Shown: one piece after another, positions 3,709-13,347 of the stretch
How the letters are laid out: every line of letters begins with the position of its first letter
Numbering within the stretch: the first letter of the stretch is position 1
Source of the DNA: Microthrixaceae bacterium
GTDB lineage: Bacteria > Actinomycetota > Acidimicrobiia > Acidimicrobiales > Acidimicrobilacustridaceae
Length of the DNA: 64,000 bases
Assembly (NCBI GenBank): GCA_947449015.1
Contig: CANFQA010000003.1
Coordinates: 1-64,000, forward strand
Direction: 5' to 3'
Program-made: the position numbers and the translations under genes
The notes under the pieces: model-generated
The model's input: only the letters and a program-made list of their open reading frames with translations
Database searches by the model: none
What the model was told of the DNA's origin: nothing

Positions 3709-5973
3709 TCAGCGCCGCACGAGTCGGTGGTGGGTTCGCTCGTGGGTGGCGATCGTGGAACCGCGTAATTGGACCGTGATGACGAGAGTGTCGGTGCTTG
3801 TGGTGGGTTCGGGGATGGTGACCCGCAGCACGCCCACCCTGGCAACCTCATCGGGACCGATCCGGCCGTTCCAGCCGGCCCGGTGCAGCACTCGGTCGGG
3901 GTCCGACAGCCAGCTGAGCGAGATGGTGACGGTGAGGTCCTCGAGAGCGGCGCGCAGATCACTGACCACATGGATGGGCAGCTTGAGGCGGTCATCGGTA
4001 TGGAGTTCGACCGGCGGGGCCTCAAGCACGGCGATCACGGGAGCGCAGGCGGCCACGAACGCTGGCCAGGCCGGTTTGGGTCGGCGCTCGTGGTCGAAAA
4101 GCGCGGCGGTGATCCCCGGGGTGGTGTCGGCAAGGGCGAACGCCGCGAACCCGCCGGTGGGCCGGTACTTGAGCCGTCGCAGGGTCTCCACATGACTGAC
4201 GACCAACTCTTGTTGGTGGCCCTGCATGGCCGCTGACCACGCATGAGCGTTCGCAAACTGCTCGGGCGCCAACTGCTCGCGCATGGCGGGAAGTTCGAGT
4301 GCGGTGCGCCGGGACAGTTCCGGCCAGTCGAGCGACGGCCATGCAGCGTCCATCTCAGCGGTGATCGACTCGCTTGGTGGGGCTTGGGCCCCGAACTCGG
4401 CGACGAAGCGACCCAGCCCGGGCCACCACCGCAGCAGTCGGGCCAGATCGTGGATGCGACCCCAGCGCCAACCGATCCAGAGATGCGAAGCTCCGGCAGC
4501 AACCTGCGGAAGGTGTGGCCACGAACCGCTCTGGGCCAGCACCGGGCGCGTGGGATCGCTCGAGATGAGTGTGTCGGCCACTGACCGGTCGAGCAGCGTG
4601 CGGTTCCACGAGGGCAAGACCTGCGCAGTGATCATGCGCATCCGCATTGCTCGGCGTCGGGTGTGTTCGCCGTCGCGCCACGCCGCGGGTTCACCGGCCC
4701 AGGGTTCATGATGGGCGTTCCACAGCAGGATCGACGGATGATGGGAGAGCTGATCAACCATCCATCGGGCGACGCGCCTCGCAGCTGGTTTGGTTTGTCG
4801 CAGCAGCGCCCATTGGATGGGAAGGTCCTGCCAGATGAGGATGCCAAGACGGTCGGCCTCTTCGTACAGCTCGGTTCGGGCCATATGCCCATGCACCCGA
4901 ACCAGATCCAGACCGGCTTCAGCCACGAGCGCGATATCCGCCGCGACCTCGGCGGGTGTGGCTTCGGCAATATGCAGCCGCGTGGGACCGAGCGAGATGC
5001 CCTTGAGAAACATTCGTTGGCCATTGACCGTGGTGATGAAGTCCTTGACTTCCACCGTGCGAAGACCGGTGCGCCAAGTGTGGGAATCGCTGACTTCTCC
5101 ATCGATGACGACTTCGATGCCCACGTCATAGAGCGGTTGGTCACCAAGGGAGCGGGGCCACCACAGTGCTGGTGTGGGGATCTCGAGTTCGAGTTCACTG
5201 CGGTTCTCACCAGCAGCGAGCGTGTGTGCGTGATCGATGATGATCTCGGCGCCTTCAGTGGGGTCAAGCAGTGAGAGTTGGTCTTCGACCCTGCGGGCCC
5301 AGGTTCGGATGATCGCCGGCCCGGAATGTTCGGAGTCGAGCACGACCCGCAGCGAGAGCAGGGCGCGTTCCTCGGTGGCTGAGGAACAACGGAGTCGACA
5401 GTGGTCGATATGCACCGGACCGGTGGTGCGAAGTTCGACATCGCGCCAAATCCCACCCGGATTGTGGCCACTGCCCATGAGTGCGGATCGACCGAACGAA
5501 CCCGAGAGATCGCGTGCTCGGCCGGTACCCACCGGATCGAATCCGGCTTCGATCGCCACTACATGTTCGTCCTCAGGCCCAGGCGCAGAGATGGTTCCTG
5601 CCAGCAATCCCGTGATCTCGAAGGTGTGGGGAACTGCGTAACTGCGGGTATCGCCCAGGTACGCGCCGTCGAACCACACGTCACCCGCGGCCATCACCCC
5701 ATGCAAGACGAGGAACATTCGATCATTTGGTCCAATGGCCTCGGATCGGAACCTTCGTCGCAGCAGCAGGGGACCGTCGCTGTTGGCGAACGCGGGGTGT
5801 GATCTCCAGTGTCCCGGGACGTTGAGTTCAGGCCAGCTGGCATCCTCAGTGTCGATTGCCGCCAGTGCGTGGGCGTCGTCGGGGTCGAAGGCGTCATCAG
5901 ACGCCGCTGGGGGAGCACCGAGGTCAATGGCGCGCCACGGCCCAGACAGACTCTGGATGCGGGGCGCGTTCAT
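3709..5973 (-). CDS. Glycoside hydrolase family 2 protein (beta-mannosidase / beta-glucuronidase type)
   Basis: A 754-residue retaining beta-glycosidase. It has the GH2 layout: an N-terminal sugar-binding jelly roll (PGHWRSHP; LHGVMAAGDVWFDGAYLG), an immunoglobulin-like domain, then a TIM barrel starting near residue 315 (FLKGISLGP, LVRVHGHM, DLPIQW). The acid/base is probably Glu423 in LWNAHHEPW and the nucleophile Glu526 in FVAEFG, so the active site looks intact. There is no signal peptide, so it is probably cytoplasmic. It has its own leaderless promoter and lies upstream of sdhCAB on the same strand. Substrate is uncertain; the HHEPW variant of the usual NE motif is seen in mannosidase-like GH2 members. 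Confidence 0.85.
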   Translation of the reverse strand: MNAPRIQSLSGPWRAIDLGAPPAASDDAFDPDDAHALAAIDTEDASWPELNVPGHWRSHPAFANSDGPLLLRRRFRSEAIGPNDRMFLVLHGVMAAGDVWFDGAYLGDTRSYAVPHTFEITGLLAGTISAPGPEDEHVVAIEAGFDPVGTGRARDLSGSFGRSALMGSGHNPGGIWRDVELRTTGPVHIDHCRLRCSSATEERALLSLRVVLDSEHSGPAIIRTWARRVEDQLSLLDPTEGAEIIIDHAHTLAAGENRSELELEIPTPALWWPRSLGDQPLYDVGIEVVIDGEVSDSHTWRTGLRTVEVKDFITTVNGQRMFLKGISLGPTRLHIAEATPAEVAADIALVAEAGLDLVRVHGHMARTELYEEADRLGILIWQDLPIQWALLRQTKPAARRVARWMVDQLSHHPSILLWNAHHEPWAGEPAAWRDGEHTRRRAMRMRMITAQVLPSWNRTLLDRSVADTLISSDPTRPVLAQSGSWPHLPQVAAGASHLWIGWRWGRIHDLARLLRWWPGLGRFVAEFGAQAPPSESITAEMDAAWPSLDWPELSRRTALELPAMREQLAPEQFANAHAWSAAMQGHQQELVVSHVETLRRLKYRPTGGFAAFALADTTPGITAALFDHERRPKPAWPAFVAACAPVIAVLEAPPVELHTDDRLKLPIHVVSDLRAALEDLTVTISLSWLSDPDRVLHRAGWNGRIGPDEVARVGVLRVTIPEPTTSTDTLVITVQLRGSTIATHERTHHRLVRR

Positions 5974-6110: not shown

Positions 6111-7517
6111 ATGTCAGAACGTCCATCAACTCTCGGTGCCCTGCGAACCTCGGGCTGGGTCAGTCGTCCAGTCAAGGAGGAGTTGCGCGCCAATGCCATC
6201 GAGCGCATCCGAGCCGGTGAGCCGTTGTTCCCCAACGTGCTTGGCTATGAAGACACCGTGCTGCCGCAGTTGGAGAACGCGCTGCTTGCTGGTCACGACG
6301 TCATCTTCCTTGGCGAGCGCGGTCAGGCCAAGACCCGCATGATTCGTTCACTCACCGGACTGCTCGACGAATGGATGCCCATCGTCGCCGGTTCCGAGAT
6401 CAATGACGATCCGTACAACCCGGTCTCCAAACACGCTCGCGATCTCGTCGCCGAACTTGAAGACGAAACGCCGATTGATTGGGTGAACCGTGAGGACCGC
6501 TTCGGCGAGAAGCTGGCCACACCCGATACGTCCATTGCTGATCTCATTGGTGAGGTCGACCCGATCAAGGTCGCCGAAGGTCGCTACCTCTCCGACGAAC
6601 TCACCCTGCATTACGGACTCGTCCCCCGCACCAATCGTGGCATCTTCGCCATTAACGAACTCCCTGATCTGGCCGAGCGCATCCAGGTTGGTCTGCTCAA
6701 TGTGCTTGAAGAGCGCGATGTGCAGGTGCGTGGTTACAAGGTCCGTCTTCCGCTCGACGTCATGCTGTTCGGATCTGCGAACCCCGAGGACTACACCAAC
6801 CGCGGCCGCATCATCACGCCGCTCAAGGACCGTTTCGGTGCGCAGATCCGCACGCATTACCCCCTCGATATCGAGACCGAGGTCACCATCGCCTTGCAGG
6901 AGGCCCGTCCGCTGGCCGCCGAGGGCGTGACAGTTACCGTCCCGAGTTTCATGACTGAGATCATCGCTGAGTTCTCTCAGCTGGCTCGGCGCAGCCCGCA
7001 TATCAATCAGCGCTCAGGCGTGTCGGTGCGTCTCACCGTGTCCAATCTGGAAACGCTTGTTGCCAACGCAGCGCGTCGTGCGCTCTCGCAGGGCGAAACC
7101 TCGGTTGTGCCCCGCGTCTGTGATCTCGATGCACTCGCTGCGTCCACCACGGGCAAGCTTGAGATCGAAACCATTGAAGACGGACGTGATGGTCTCATCG
7201 TCGAGCAGATTCTCAAGGCCGCCACGCTGTCGATCTTCCGTGAGCACGTCGCCGTTGAGAACCTTCGCGAGGTCGTTGAAGCGTTCGATGGTGATCGCAT
7301 TGTGCAAGCCGGCGAGGACGTGAGCACCGACGAGTACGTCGCCCTTCTGGCTGATGTTCCCGCGCTTGAGAGTTCTGTTGCTGGTCTGATCGGCGACGAC
7401 CGGGCGCCGGCCATGGTGGCGAGCGCCGTGGAGTTCATCCTTGAAGGTCTGCATCTCTCCAAGCGCCTGAACAAAGAAGCGGTTGGCGCACGCGCCCAGT
7501 ACCGCGGCCGCTCCTAG
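6111..7517 (+). CDS. MoxR/magnesium-chelatase-type AAA+ ATPase
   Basis: A 468-residue AAA+ protein of the chelatase/MoxR superfamily. The Walker A is GERGQAKT (residues 68-75), followed by a long insert rich in Asp/Glu. A Walker B-like GIFAINELPDL has Asn-Glu in place of the usual Asp-Glu, and the sensor-1 region GSANPEDYTNRGR precedes the arginine-finger region. Members usually work with a VWA-domain protein to remodel or insert cofactors into a partner. The expected partner is encoded at 9566-11581 on the same strand, separated by two genes on the opposite strand. Start: ATG with AGGAAG upstream. The substrate is unknown. Confidence 0.85.
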   Translation: MSERPSTLGALRTSGWVSRPVKEELRANAIERIRAGEPLFPNVLGYEDTVLPQLENALLAGHDVIFLGERGQAKTRMIRSLTGLLDEWMPIVAGSEINDDPYNPVSKHARDLVAELEDETPIDWVNREDRFGEKLATPDTSIADLIGEVDPIKVAEGRYLSDELTLHYGLVPRTNRGIFAINELPDLAERIQVGLLNVLEERDVQVRGYKVRLPLDVMLFGSANPEDYTNRGRIITPLKDRFGAQIRTHYPLDIETEVTIALQEARPLAAEGVTVTVPSFMTEIIAEFSQLARRSPHINQRSGVSVRLTVSNLETLVANAARRALSQGETSVVPRVCDLDALAASTTGKLEIETIEDGRDGLIVEQILKAATLSIFREHVAVENLREVVEAFDGDRIVQAGEDVSTDEYVALLADVPALESSVAGLIGDDRAPAMVASAVEFILEGLHLSKRLNKEAVGARAQYRGRS

Positions 7518-7566: not shown

Positions 7567-8268
7567 TCAGCGCTGATCGTTGACCAGTTCGTGCACGCCG
7601 GCTGTGCCTGCGACCACGATCCGCTCGACCATCGCGCCCGGGAAGATGCCGTGTTCAACGATGCCCGGCACCGCCCAGAGCGCCGCTCCGAGCGCAACGG
7701 GATCAGCAATGGAGCCGAACTGCGCATCCATCACTAGGTTGCCGTTGTCGCTGCGTCGCTCCCGAGTGGTGACGCTGTGGGCACCGAGTGCGAGGACCGC
7801 GCTGGTGACGACGCCGGGAGCGAAGTCGAGAACCTCGAGTGGCGTGCCGAACGGGCCGAGTGCTTCAACGATCTTGGATTCGTCGACCACCACGATGAAG
7901 CGCGGACTCATGGATGCGATGATCTTTTCGCGGGTATGTGCCGCGCCGCCGCCCTTGGTGAGGTTGAACGCAGGGTCGACCTCATCAGCGCCATCGATGG
8001 CGATATCGAGCGAACCGATCTCATCGGGGGAGATGACACGAAGTCCGAGTGACGTTGCCAGCTCATGGGTCTGTACCGAGGTTGCTGTGCAAATGATGTC
8101 GAGAGCTCGCTCGCCCAACTCCACGATGGTCCAATGCACGGTGGAGCCGGTGCCGAGCCCGACCTTCATTCCGTCGGTCACATAGCCGGCGGCATGACGA
8201 CCGGCCTCTTCCTTCGCCTGCTGCTGGGCCTGTTGTTGGGCCTGAACACGCGCGTCTGCGTCACTCAT
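7567..8268 (-). CDS. rpiA: Ribose-5-phosphate isomerase A
   Basis: Interconverts ribose 5-phosphate and ribulose 5-phosphate in the pentose phosphate pathway. The 233-residue protein has the family motifs GLGTGSTV (phosphate loop), DGADEVD (catalytic Asp pair) and KGGGAAHTREK (catalytic Lys and Glu). The N-terminus carries an unusual Gln/Ala run (residues 8-18) coded by near-repeats. The start ATG overlaps the stop of the upstream GH1-like gene by four bases (ATGA), so translation of the two is probably coupled. Confidence 0.94.
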   Translation of the reverse strand: MSDADARVQAQQQAQQQAKEEAGRHAAGYVTDGMKVGLGTGSTVHWTIVELGERALDIICTATSVQTHELATSLGLRVISPDEIGSLDIAIDGADEVDPAFNLTKGGGAAHTREKIIASMSPRFIVVVDESKIVEALGPFGTPLEVLDFAPGVVTSAVLALGAHSVTTRERRSDNGNLVMDAQFGSIADPVALGAALWAVPGIVEHGIFPGAMVERIVVAGTAGVHELVNDQR

Positions 8269-9536
8269 GGTTTTAGTCTCGCGCTGCCGCCGGCGATGTC
8301 GCGGATGACAGACGCACTCGGACGTGGGTTGCGGTCACGGTCGATGAACCCAGTGGGCACCTCTAGACCACACTCGGGGGTCCATCCGTCGACAGCGGTC
8401 TCCCAGAACACGTGGGTGATGTTCACGCCGTCATCGACCGCACGAGCAACCTCAACTGCGGTGGACTGCATCATCTCGATTCTCCACTGATCTTCGTTGG
8501 CGGTGAGGCCGGTCCCCAGCAGAGCAAGCGGTCGATGGAGTTCCTCATCGGCGAGCCGTCGCAGCGTGATCCCGAGACCCTCGGCCCACGGGGTGCGGCC
8601 ATCGGCCGCGGTGACTGCGTCGGTTGGATAGGGCCCGTCGGTGCCATCAACGAACACACTGCGAGCGCCCCGTTGGGTGAAACCGATGTGGTCGTAGCCA
8701 CCGGCAAGGCCGTCCAGTTCACGCTCGGCGAGGCCGGGGATGGAAATGACGCCATCGCGTAGAGCCCGAATCCACGTGCCGAAGCGCATGCGGTCGATTC
8801 GGTTGGCCCGTTCCATCGCCGCAATCCGTTCATCGGGCTCGCGGGAATGCACGCCGGCGACCGTCGGTTCGGCGTCGATACAGCACACCACTGGCGCACC
8901 GCCACTGCGCAGCAGACGAAGTGCCTCGTAGGAGGCCAGATGCAGCGCGAGAAGGTGATCGAGGAAGTCCTTGTCGGAACGCATACCGGGAGGGCGGGTG
9001 CCCTCGAGGCGTCCATGGCGCGCGATCTCGAACGGGTCGAGCACTGGAACCCAGGCGCTCACGAGATCGCCGAATGTTTCGGCCACCCGATCGACGTATC
9101 GCGGCCACACCCGGCGCAGACCGATCTCATCATCAAGTCCGTTCTGGTCGTCGGCGAACCAGCCCGGGAGCGAGCCATCGTGAAGCACTGCCCACACTTC
9201 GACACCGGCATGGCGCGCCGCACGCAGTACCTCGGAGATCAGATCAATTGCACCGCTGTCCCATCGCCCCTCGAAGGGTTCGAGTCGAGCCCAGTCGAAC
9301 GTCCAACGGAAGGCCCGCAGACCAAGTTCGGCCATCTGCTCGAGGTCGGCACGGAAGTCCACGCCGAAACCGCTGCCATCAGCGGAACCGGGGAGGCGAC
9401 CGTTGGTTTCCCACGGGGCCCAGGTGCTTCGAGCAGCGATGCCAAGCGTGCTGGTGGCGGTGGCCGCGGCACCCCAAATTGGCGCGAAGGAGGCGGTCAG
9501 GATCTGTGTCTCGGGCGACCCTGCAGCGTCAGTCAT
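8265..9536 (-). CDS. GH1-like protein lacking both catalytic glutamates
   Basis: A 423-residue protein that follows the glycoside hydrolase family 1 fold: an N-terminal barrel start, FRWTFDWARLEP, VLHDGSLPGWF where GH1 has HW..LP, and a C-terminal VFWETAVDGWTPECGL where GH1 has WSL.DNFEW..GY. The acid/base block TFNEP reads PVLDP, putting Asp167 where Glu should be. The nucleophile block TENG reads GTGL (341-344), with no acid. It is therefore unlikely to be a normal retaining glucosidase and may bind sugar or have another activity. It is translationally coupled to rpiA and divergent, by 29 bases, from the VWA gene. A GATACT hexamer six bases before the ATG suggests a leaderless start. Confidence 0.75.
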   Translation of the reverse strand: MTDAAGSPETQILTASFAPIWGAAATATSTLGIAARSTWAPWETNGRLPGSADGSGFGVDFRADLEQMAELGLRAFRWTFDWARLEPFEGRWDSGAIDLISEVLRAARHAGVEVWAVLHDGSLPGWFADDQNGLDDEIGLRRVWPRYVDRVAETFGDLVSAWVPVLDPFEIARHGRLEGTRPPGMRSDKDFLDHLLALHLASYEALRLLRSGGAPVVCCIDAEPTVAGVHSREPDERIAAMERANRIDRMRFGTWIRALRDGVISIPGLAERELDGLAGGYDHIGFTQRGARSVFVDGTDGPYPTDAVTAADGRTPWAEGLGITLRRLADEELHRPLALLGTGLTANEDQWRIEMMQSTAVEVARAVDDGVNITHVFWETAVDGWTPECGLEVPTGFIDRDRNPRPSASVIRDIAGGSARLKP

Positions 9537-11665: not shown

Positions 11666-11700
11666 GGTTGCACTTGATCTCGTTCCTGGGGGACCGGCAA

Positions 11701-12042
11701 ATGACCGAAACCGCATCACGTTCAACGGCGGCAGCAGGCTTCACGATCACCGACGGTGTGCCCGTCGAGCTCGGTGAGGATAAGTCTTGGCAGGATCTCG
11801 CCAACTGCCTCGGGGTTGACCCCGATCTCTTCTTCCCCGAGCGGGGAGCCTCCACGCGTGAGGCCAAAGAGGTCTGCCGTGGCTGCGTCGTTCGCGATGA
11901 CTGCCTCGAGTACGCGCTTGCCAACGGTGAGAAGTTCGGCATCTGGGGCGGCATGAGCGAGCGTGAGCGTCGCCGCATTCGTCGTCAGAGGGCACTCGCC
12001 CGGGCTGCGGCCACATCGGAACGCACCACCGCCACTGCCTGA
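11701..12042 (+). CDS. WhiB-family iron-sulfur transcriptional regulator
   Basis: A 113-residue WhiB-like protein. Four cysteines that would hold a [4Fe-4S] cluster are present: Cys36, then C-x2-C-x5-C (59, 62, 68). They are followed by the GIWGG turn and a basic tail (ERRRIRRQR) for DNA contact. WhiB-like proteins occur only in actinomycetes and their phages, and act with the main sigma factor. ATG 11701 follows GGGGGA by seven bases; a longer version from 11668 lacks a good ribosome site. Which Whi class it belongs to was not resolved. Confidence 0.93.
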   Translation: MTETASRSTAAAGFTITDGVPVELGEDKSWQDLANCLGVDPDLFFPERGASTREAKEVCRGCVVRDDCLEYALANGEKFGIWGGMSERERRRIRRQRALARAAATSERTTATA

Positions 12043-13082: not shown

Positions 13083-13334
13083 TCAGAGGCTGTAGATCGG
13101 GATTCGAACTCCGCGAGCCTTGAGGATGCGGCGGCGTTGGCGCTCCGAGGTGCCTCCCCAGACGCCATGGTCAATGCGGTTTTCGAGCGCGAACTCAAGG
13201 CAGGTGTTGACCACCGGGCAGGTGGCGCAGATTCGCTTTGCCACCTCCACTCCCACACCGTCGCTCGGGAAGAACGTGTCGGGGTTGAGATTGCGGCAGA
13301 TTCCGTCTTCCATCCAGTCGGTTGTGGTTTCCAT
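13083..13334 (-). CDS. WhiB-family iron-sulfur transcriptional regulator (short type)
   Basis: An 83-residue WhiB-like protein with cluster cysteines Cys13 and C-x2-C-x5-C (36, 39, 45), the GVWGG turn and a basic RQRRRILKARG tail. The first ATG is at 13334, preceded at seven bases by TACATT, so the message should be leaderless. A TTG nine bases upstream would overlap that hexamer. It is the second WhiB in 1.6 kb, followed by a strong terminator. It is shorter than the 11701 copy and differs in the linker, so the two are not a recent duplication. Confidence 0.93.
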   Translation of the reverse strand: METTTDWMEDGICRNLNPDTFFPSDGVGVEVAKRICATCPVVNTCLEFALENRIDHGVWGGTSERQRRRILKARGVRIPIYSL

Positions 13335-13341
13335 GTGGCGC

Positions 13342-13347
13342 AATGTA
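13342..13347 (-). promoter_or_regulatory. Leaderless -10 hexamer for the second whiB gene
   Basis: TACATT on the minus strand, seven bases before the ATG at 13334. Confidence 0.6.

Follow-up and report, generated by a model that had tools for sequence, protein, structure and literature searches.

The Klotho GH1 folds are described as catalytically inactive and as binding a sugar-mimicking protein partner (PMC7828330). MoxR AAA+ ATPases, in their pairs with vWA proteins, act in target remodelling or metal insertion (PMC13036017, PMC10585395). In the window, i.e. the whole stretch of 64,000 nucleotides that was analyzed, a GH1-fold gene lacking both catalytic Glu codons is flanked by rpiA and a vWA gene; on the rpiA side, MoxR comes next and is followed by a GH2-like gene, namely:

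3709..5973, minus strand: GH2 (beta-mannosidase-like) protein, head-to-head with MoxR; motif altered to HHEP, nucleophile motif AEFG kept
6111..7517, plus strand: MoxR-type AAA+ ATPase, the tail-to-tail neighbour in most loci
7567..8268, minus strand: rpiA, ribose-5-phosphate isomerase A, neighbour of the GH1-fold gene in the host family only
8265..8268, minus strand: ATGA overlap of the GH1-fold gene stop with the rpiA start
8265..9536, minus strand: GH1-fold protein gene, 423 aa, ATG start, lacking the GH1 catalytic Glu residues
9566..11581, plus strand: vWA-domain protein with a MIDAS DxSxS motif, the divergent neighbour in nearly all loci

The window protein is a complete GH1 (beta/alpha)8 TIM barrel, as judged by its Pfam match, its PDB sequence match and the superposition of its predicted model on 1vff. 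The ORF at 8265-9536 matches Pfam PF00232 (GH1) at E 2.7e-13, above the cut-off, and a GH1 Pfam match is present in 61/61 aligned family members. The match to NCBIfam BGL reaches 8.7e-19 but falls far under the BGL cut-off, and PDB entry 1vff is matched at E 5.4e-21. The AlphaFold model, for which 61 family sequences served as input, has a mean pLDDT of 94.6 and superposes on 1vff with a Z of 48.7 at 2.2 A over 393 residues. The GH1-fold ORF that the original prediction had proposed is real, and its GH1 homology is beyond chance. Automatic annotation would label all of these GH1 homologues beta-glucosidases.

The catalytic positions were placed by alignment to the PDB GH1 enzymes, to about 70 relatives and to L002, an intact GH1 paralogue in the host genome with the motifs INEP and TENG. 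The window protein has L166-D167-P168 where the acid/base Glu of NEP is expected and L340-G341-T342-G343 where the nucleophile Glu of TENG is expected, so that D167 and G341 occupy the two catalytic positions. This agrees with the earlier reading of the NEP block as LDP with Asp167. The TENG Glu is likewise missing as predicted, but the GTGL proposed for that block is shifted by one residue, and it is LGTG, one residue earlier, that aligns with TENG. The codons concerned, together with two others of the pocket, are:

9036..9038, minus strand: Asp167, acid/base (NEP) position, within V-L-D-P; placed by alignments, invariant in 26 same-family inactive sequences
8670..8672, minus strand: Arg289, conserved pocket Tyr position; invariant in the same-family inactive sequences
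8514..8516, minus strand: Gly341, nucleophile (TENG) position, within L-L-G-T-G; placed by alignments
8400..8402, minus strand: Glu379, conserved pocket Trp position (BglA W398, Paenibacillus); two further inactive clades are likewise acidic here

The rest of the GH1 scaffold had also been thought to be kept, which holds for the barrel but not for the sugar pocket: at 11/11 catalytic and -1-subsite positions checked, the window protein differs from the active members of its family (f1). The list follows what is generally known of GH1 enzymes, with the numbering of Paenibacillus BglA. The -1-subsite set is missing, with S29, D120, G121, L166, E379, T386 and P387 standing where BglA has Q20, H121, W122, N165, W398, E405 and W406, respectively. 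A new pocket set is invariant across the 26 inactive f1 sequences: G121, L166, D167, T287, R289, L340, G341, T342, W378, E379, G384 and W385. Among 83 positions that are invariant within the active and within the inactive f1 groups, 15 differ between the groups, including all 7 pocket positions represented there (Fisher p 1.5e-6, a value to be read as indicative since the pocket list was set after a first look at the pocket columns). As the alignments read, the pocket of the inactive f1 proteins was rebuilt as a unit and afterwards conserved. In a large clade with Asp at several of these positions (the large D clade, e.g. L054, L065 and L068), acidic residues cluster at 166 (D/E), 167 (D), 289 (D) and 379 (D), possibly as a metal site. 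A salt-bridge swap between 167 and 289 (D/R in f1, E/R in f18 and f3, R/acidic in f41) was considered and set aside; the pattern is suggestive, but the pair ranks only modestly for covariation (1763 of 68308), and in the large clade both positions are D.

The GH1-fold gene occurs in 20/21 same-genus genomes, 31/37 genomes of the host family and, at a threshold of E 1e-30, 72/298 genomes of the order. A phylum-wide sample added one further genome, from another order, which carries an inactive copy in the slot divergent from vWA (L112, with LHHP and ITGLG) and a copy elsewhere with an intact nucleophile motif (L113). Taking the 298 order genomes, the family and this one other order together, more than 60 loci lack one or both Glu residues. 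Every same-genus copy that could be read over both motifs has LDP and LGTG, and an inactive copy is also found in both genomes of genus g3 and in one of the two genomes of genus g4. The expectation that loss of both Glu residues would be conserved and selected across a clade is borne out, and a loss that is clade-wide and under selection is not an error. The window protein is very probably a non-hydrolase.

Catalytic loss probably happened more than once. The full-length gene tree places most inactive sequences together and requires one change of activity state; gene trees built without the pocket columns require 2-3 changes, with the f3 clade separating, and the MoxR+vWA(+rpiA) tree requires 5. 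In the AU test, a single loss is not rejected (p 0.45), and one host-family clade is not either (p 0.32, 0.40). A search for two GH1 copies in one slot, as a source of the mixture, found none except the broken L098. In genus g4, the inactive L135 and the active L145 occupy the same slot in two species; the gene tree places L145 with another genus, as a replacement of the gene would do. Partial states also occur: in L058 and L140 the nucleophile Glu survives without the acid/base Glu, and f3 keeps only the acid/base Glu. Orthologues with intact NEP and AE(C/H/A)G motifs (L038, L040, L041, L047, L056 and L145) lie at the same place between MoxR and vWA and are mostly 38-46% identical to the window protein, but unlike it they keep the catalytic residues. 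These active slot orthologues likely represent the ancestral state.

Every inactive relative with readable surroundings sits in the vWA/MoxR slot. A vWA or MoxR gene lies within the fetched stretch at 59/62 inactive loci; at the remaining three, the contig also carries vWA at a distance of 6.7 kb (L097) or the gene is near a contig end (L068 and L089). Seven of the 19 active loci, in contrast, lie elsewhere (inactive vs. active p 1.7e-5, with loci counted without correction for shared descent). The GH1-fold gene is divergent from vWA at all but one of the loci with vWA in view. All 72 order genomes with the GH1-fold gene have vWA, compared with 253/298 overall; MoxR, like vWA, also occurs without the GH1-fold gene, and since about 180 of the 253 vWA genomes have no GH1-fold gene, it is an accessory. 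Both neighbours retain their motifs, namely: Walker A GERGQAK(T/S) in 50/51 MoxR neighbours (one gapped) and MIDAS DxSxS in 54/56 vWA neighbours (two gapped). The Walker B motif of MoxR proteins is usually Asp-Glu; in the window MoxR it is Asn-Glu (GIFAINEL), and this is invariant in 51/51 relatives. Two WhiB genes lie close together near the locus, at 11668-12042 (plus strand) and 13083-13343 (minus strand); they indicate an actinobacterial host, and their order is often kept in relatives. A role in anti-phage defence was also considered and dropped, as PADLOC gave no match of note.

On the far side of MoxR, the GH2-like protein, whose closest relatives are beta-mannosidases, is eroding in parallel. 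In the window, only the Asn of its motif is changed (HHEP) and both Glu residues remain. The GH2 motif is altered in 21/25 readable inactive loci (HDEP, HDAP, HVDP, SAFG, GGFG and SQFG), and it is canonical (HNEP, TEFG) in the 4 active-slot loci outside f1 where both motifs are readable (L041, L056, L060 and L062). The GH2 proteins that are losing catalytic residues include those next to L043, L048, L053, L058, L065, L084, L100-L102 and L146. The GH1 and GH2 losses are associated and not locked together, since an intact GH2 stands beside an inactive GH1 at L064, L066, L067 and L070, and the active GH1 of L145 stands beside an HHEP GH2.

The original prediction had linked the GH1-fold protein to rpiA, by translational coupling, and given it a regulatory or sugar-binding role tied to pentose phosphate metabolism. 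The ATGA overlap is indeed present in the window and rpiA adjoins most f1 members, but only L143 shares the overlap and most same-genus relatives have a gap of 14-50 bases, so that coupling is not conserved even within the genus. The pentose phosphate link fails because rpiA is adjacent only in f1, where it is equally near active (L038, L040, L145 and L139) and inactive copies; no inactive relative outside f1 is near it. The conserved neighbours that a survey of homologues brings out are the MoxR, vWA and GH2-like genes instead of rpiA. Its proximity to rpiA is accidental and local, and a role tied to rpiA is very hard to credit. Equally hard to credit is a gene decaying on its way to loss, with constraint relaxed once its activity had become dispensable. 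Many relatives do lack the gene, such as G284 of the host family, which has rpiA, MoxR and vWA and no GH1 gene at that place, and a few members (L098 and L140) look frameshifted. Against this, the gene is retained across one order and into another, with full-length ORFs at more than 60 loci, and dN/dS is 0.03-0.19 in inactive pairs vs. 0.05-0.13 in active pairs. Low dN/dS together with a conserved rebuilt pocket, including its new invariant residues, is not decay, and within the window's genus, where dN/dS is 0.028-0.055, that explanation is refuted. Loss of the catalytic motif is thus combined here with purifying selection (dN/dS), the combination by which a pseudoenzyme is recognized, and the gene probably encodes a repurposed, non-cutting protein rather than being broken.

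Such a pseudo-glycosidase might have a function unrelated to MoxR-vWA, its slot reflecting a shared divergent promoter or a stable gene order. Only 29 bases separate the starts of the GH1-fold and vWA genes in the window, and most genomes have MoxR and vWA without it; we nonetheless consider this unlikely, given that the readable inactive members all occupy the slot, to which active ones are not confined, and that the GH2 gene next to MoxR is eroding in parallel. The pocket could also have been rewired as a new active site, the carboxylate having moved from strand 7 to strand 8 (Glu379/Asp379) with an acidic 167 kept, which would give a changed glycosidase, transferase, lyase or metal-dependent activity. 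Position 379 is acidic in three inactive clades (E in 100% of f1 and of f41, D/E in 87% of the large D clade) where active members have Trp, most inactive clades retain D or E at 167, R84 is kept in 50/52 representatives, the pocket residues are invariant in f1, and the acidic cluster of the large D clade (D/E166, D167, D289 and D379) could hold a metal. However, the clades share no single residue set and hence no common mechanism (f41 has Arg at 167, f18 has A/S/T at 379, and L112 has HHP and Q), the sugar-binding residues of the -1 subsite are gone, and the new carboxylates may do no more than pair with R84 and R289. We regard a rewired site as distinctly improbable; the 'new chemistry' once suggested for the protein may still apply, but the analysis brought no positive evidence for it. 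That MoxR-vWA mature the barrel into a new enzyme or a metal site, built on the strand-8 Glu/Asp379 and the acidic 167 in versions that differ by clade, strikes us as quite doubtful.

On balance, we lean towards a selected pseudo-glycosidase kept as a binding or adaptor protein and linked with the MoxR-vWA module, not with rpiA. An active GH1 beta-glycosidase gene, divergent from the vWA gene, would have been the ancestor; its product would have lost the retaining hydrolase mechanism, and the barrel with its rebuilt pocket would have been retained for a non-hydrolytic job. A ligand or partner may be bound through the rebuilt pocket or the barrel rim, Klotho-like in principle, and the GH1-fold protein would serve, or be served by, the MoxR-vWA remodelling pair. 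Several points weigh against this: MoxR and vWA mostly occur without the GH1-fold gene and so have no need of it, the linkage may come from a shared promoter or from chromosome stability, the Asp167 carboxylate might yet serve as an acid, and a new carboxylate enters the pocket with Glu379, so that some activity is possible.

The proteins described here make up a set of bacterial pseudo-glycosidases that includes intermediates and shares a conserved locus, and no description of this set was found in the open-licence literature searched. Animals, with Klotho, are the main known source of inactive GH1 folds. The bacterial copies, active and inactive in one slot and even within one genus (L145 vs. 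L135), form a natural series which, with its intermediates (L058, L112 and L140), bears on how and why a glycosidase becomes a non-enzyme. The GH1- and GH2-fold proteins in turn become two candidate partners for an uncharacterised MoxR-vWA pair.

Compared with the GH1 beta-glycosidases 1vff of Pyrococcus horikoshii and 8kap/9u98 of Streptomyces griseus (SGR_2426), the window protein is alike in size and in the whole (beta/alpha)8 fold, at 21-22% identity, but it lacks both catalytic Glu residues and all of the -1-subsite residues checked. It resembles the GH1-like repeats of alpha- and beta-Klotho in being an inactive GH1 fold, and Klotho chains are among its sequence matches. The Klothos, animal membrane co-receptors with the repeats in tandem and with different residues changed, have no genomic or functional link to it. 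The literature examined on MoxR-vWA pairs yielded no glycosidase-fold component. As in NorQ-NorD, RavA-ViaA and CbbQ-CbbO, the genes flanking the window GH1-fold gene specify an ATPase of the MoxR type together with a vWA protein that has a MIDAS motif.
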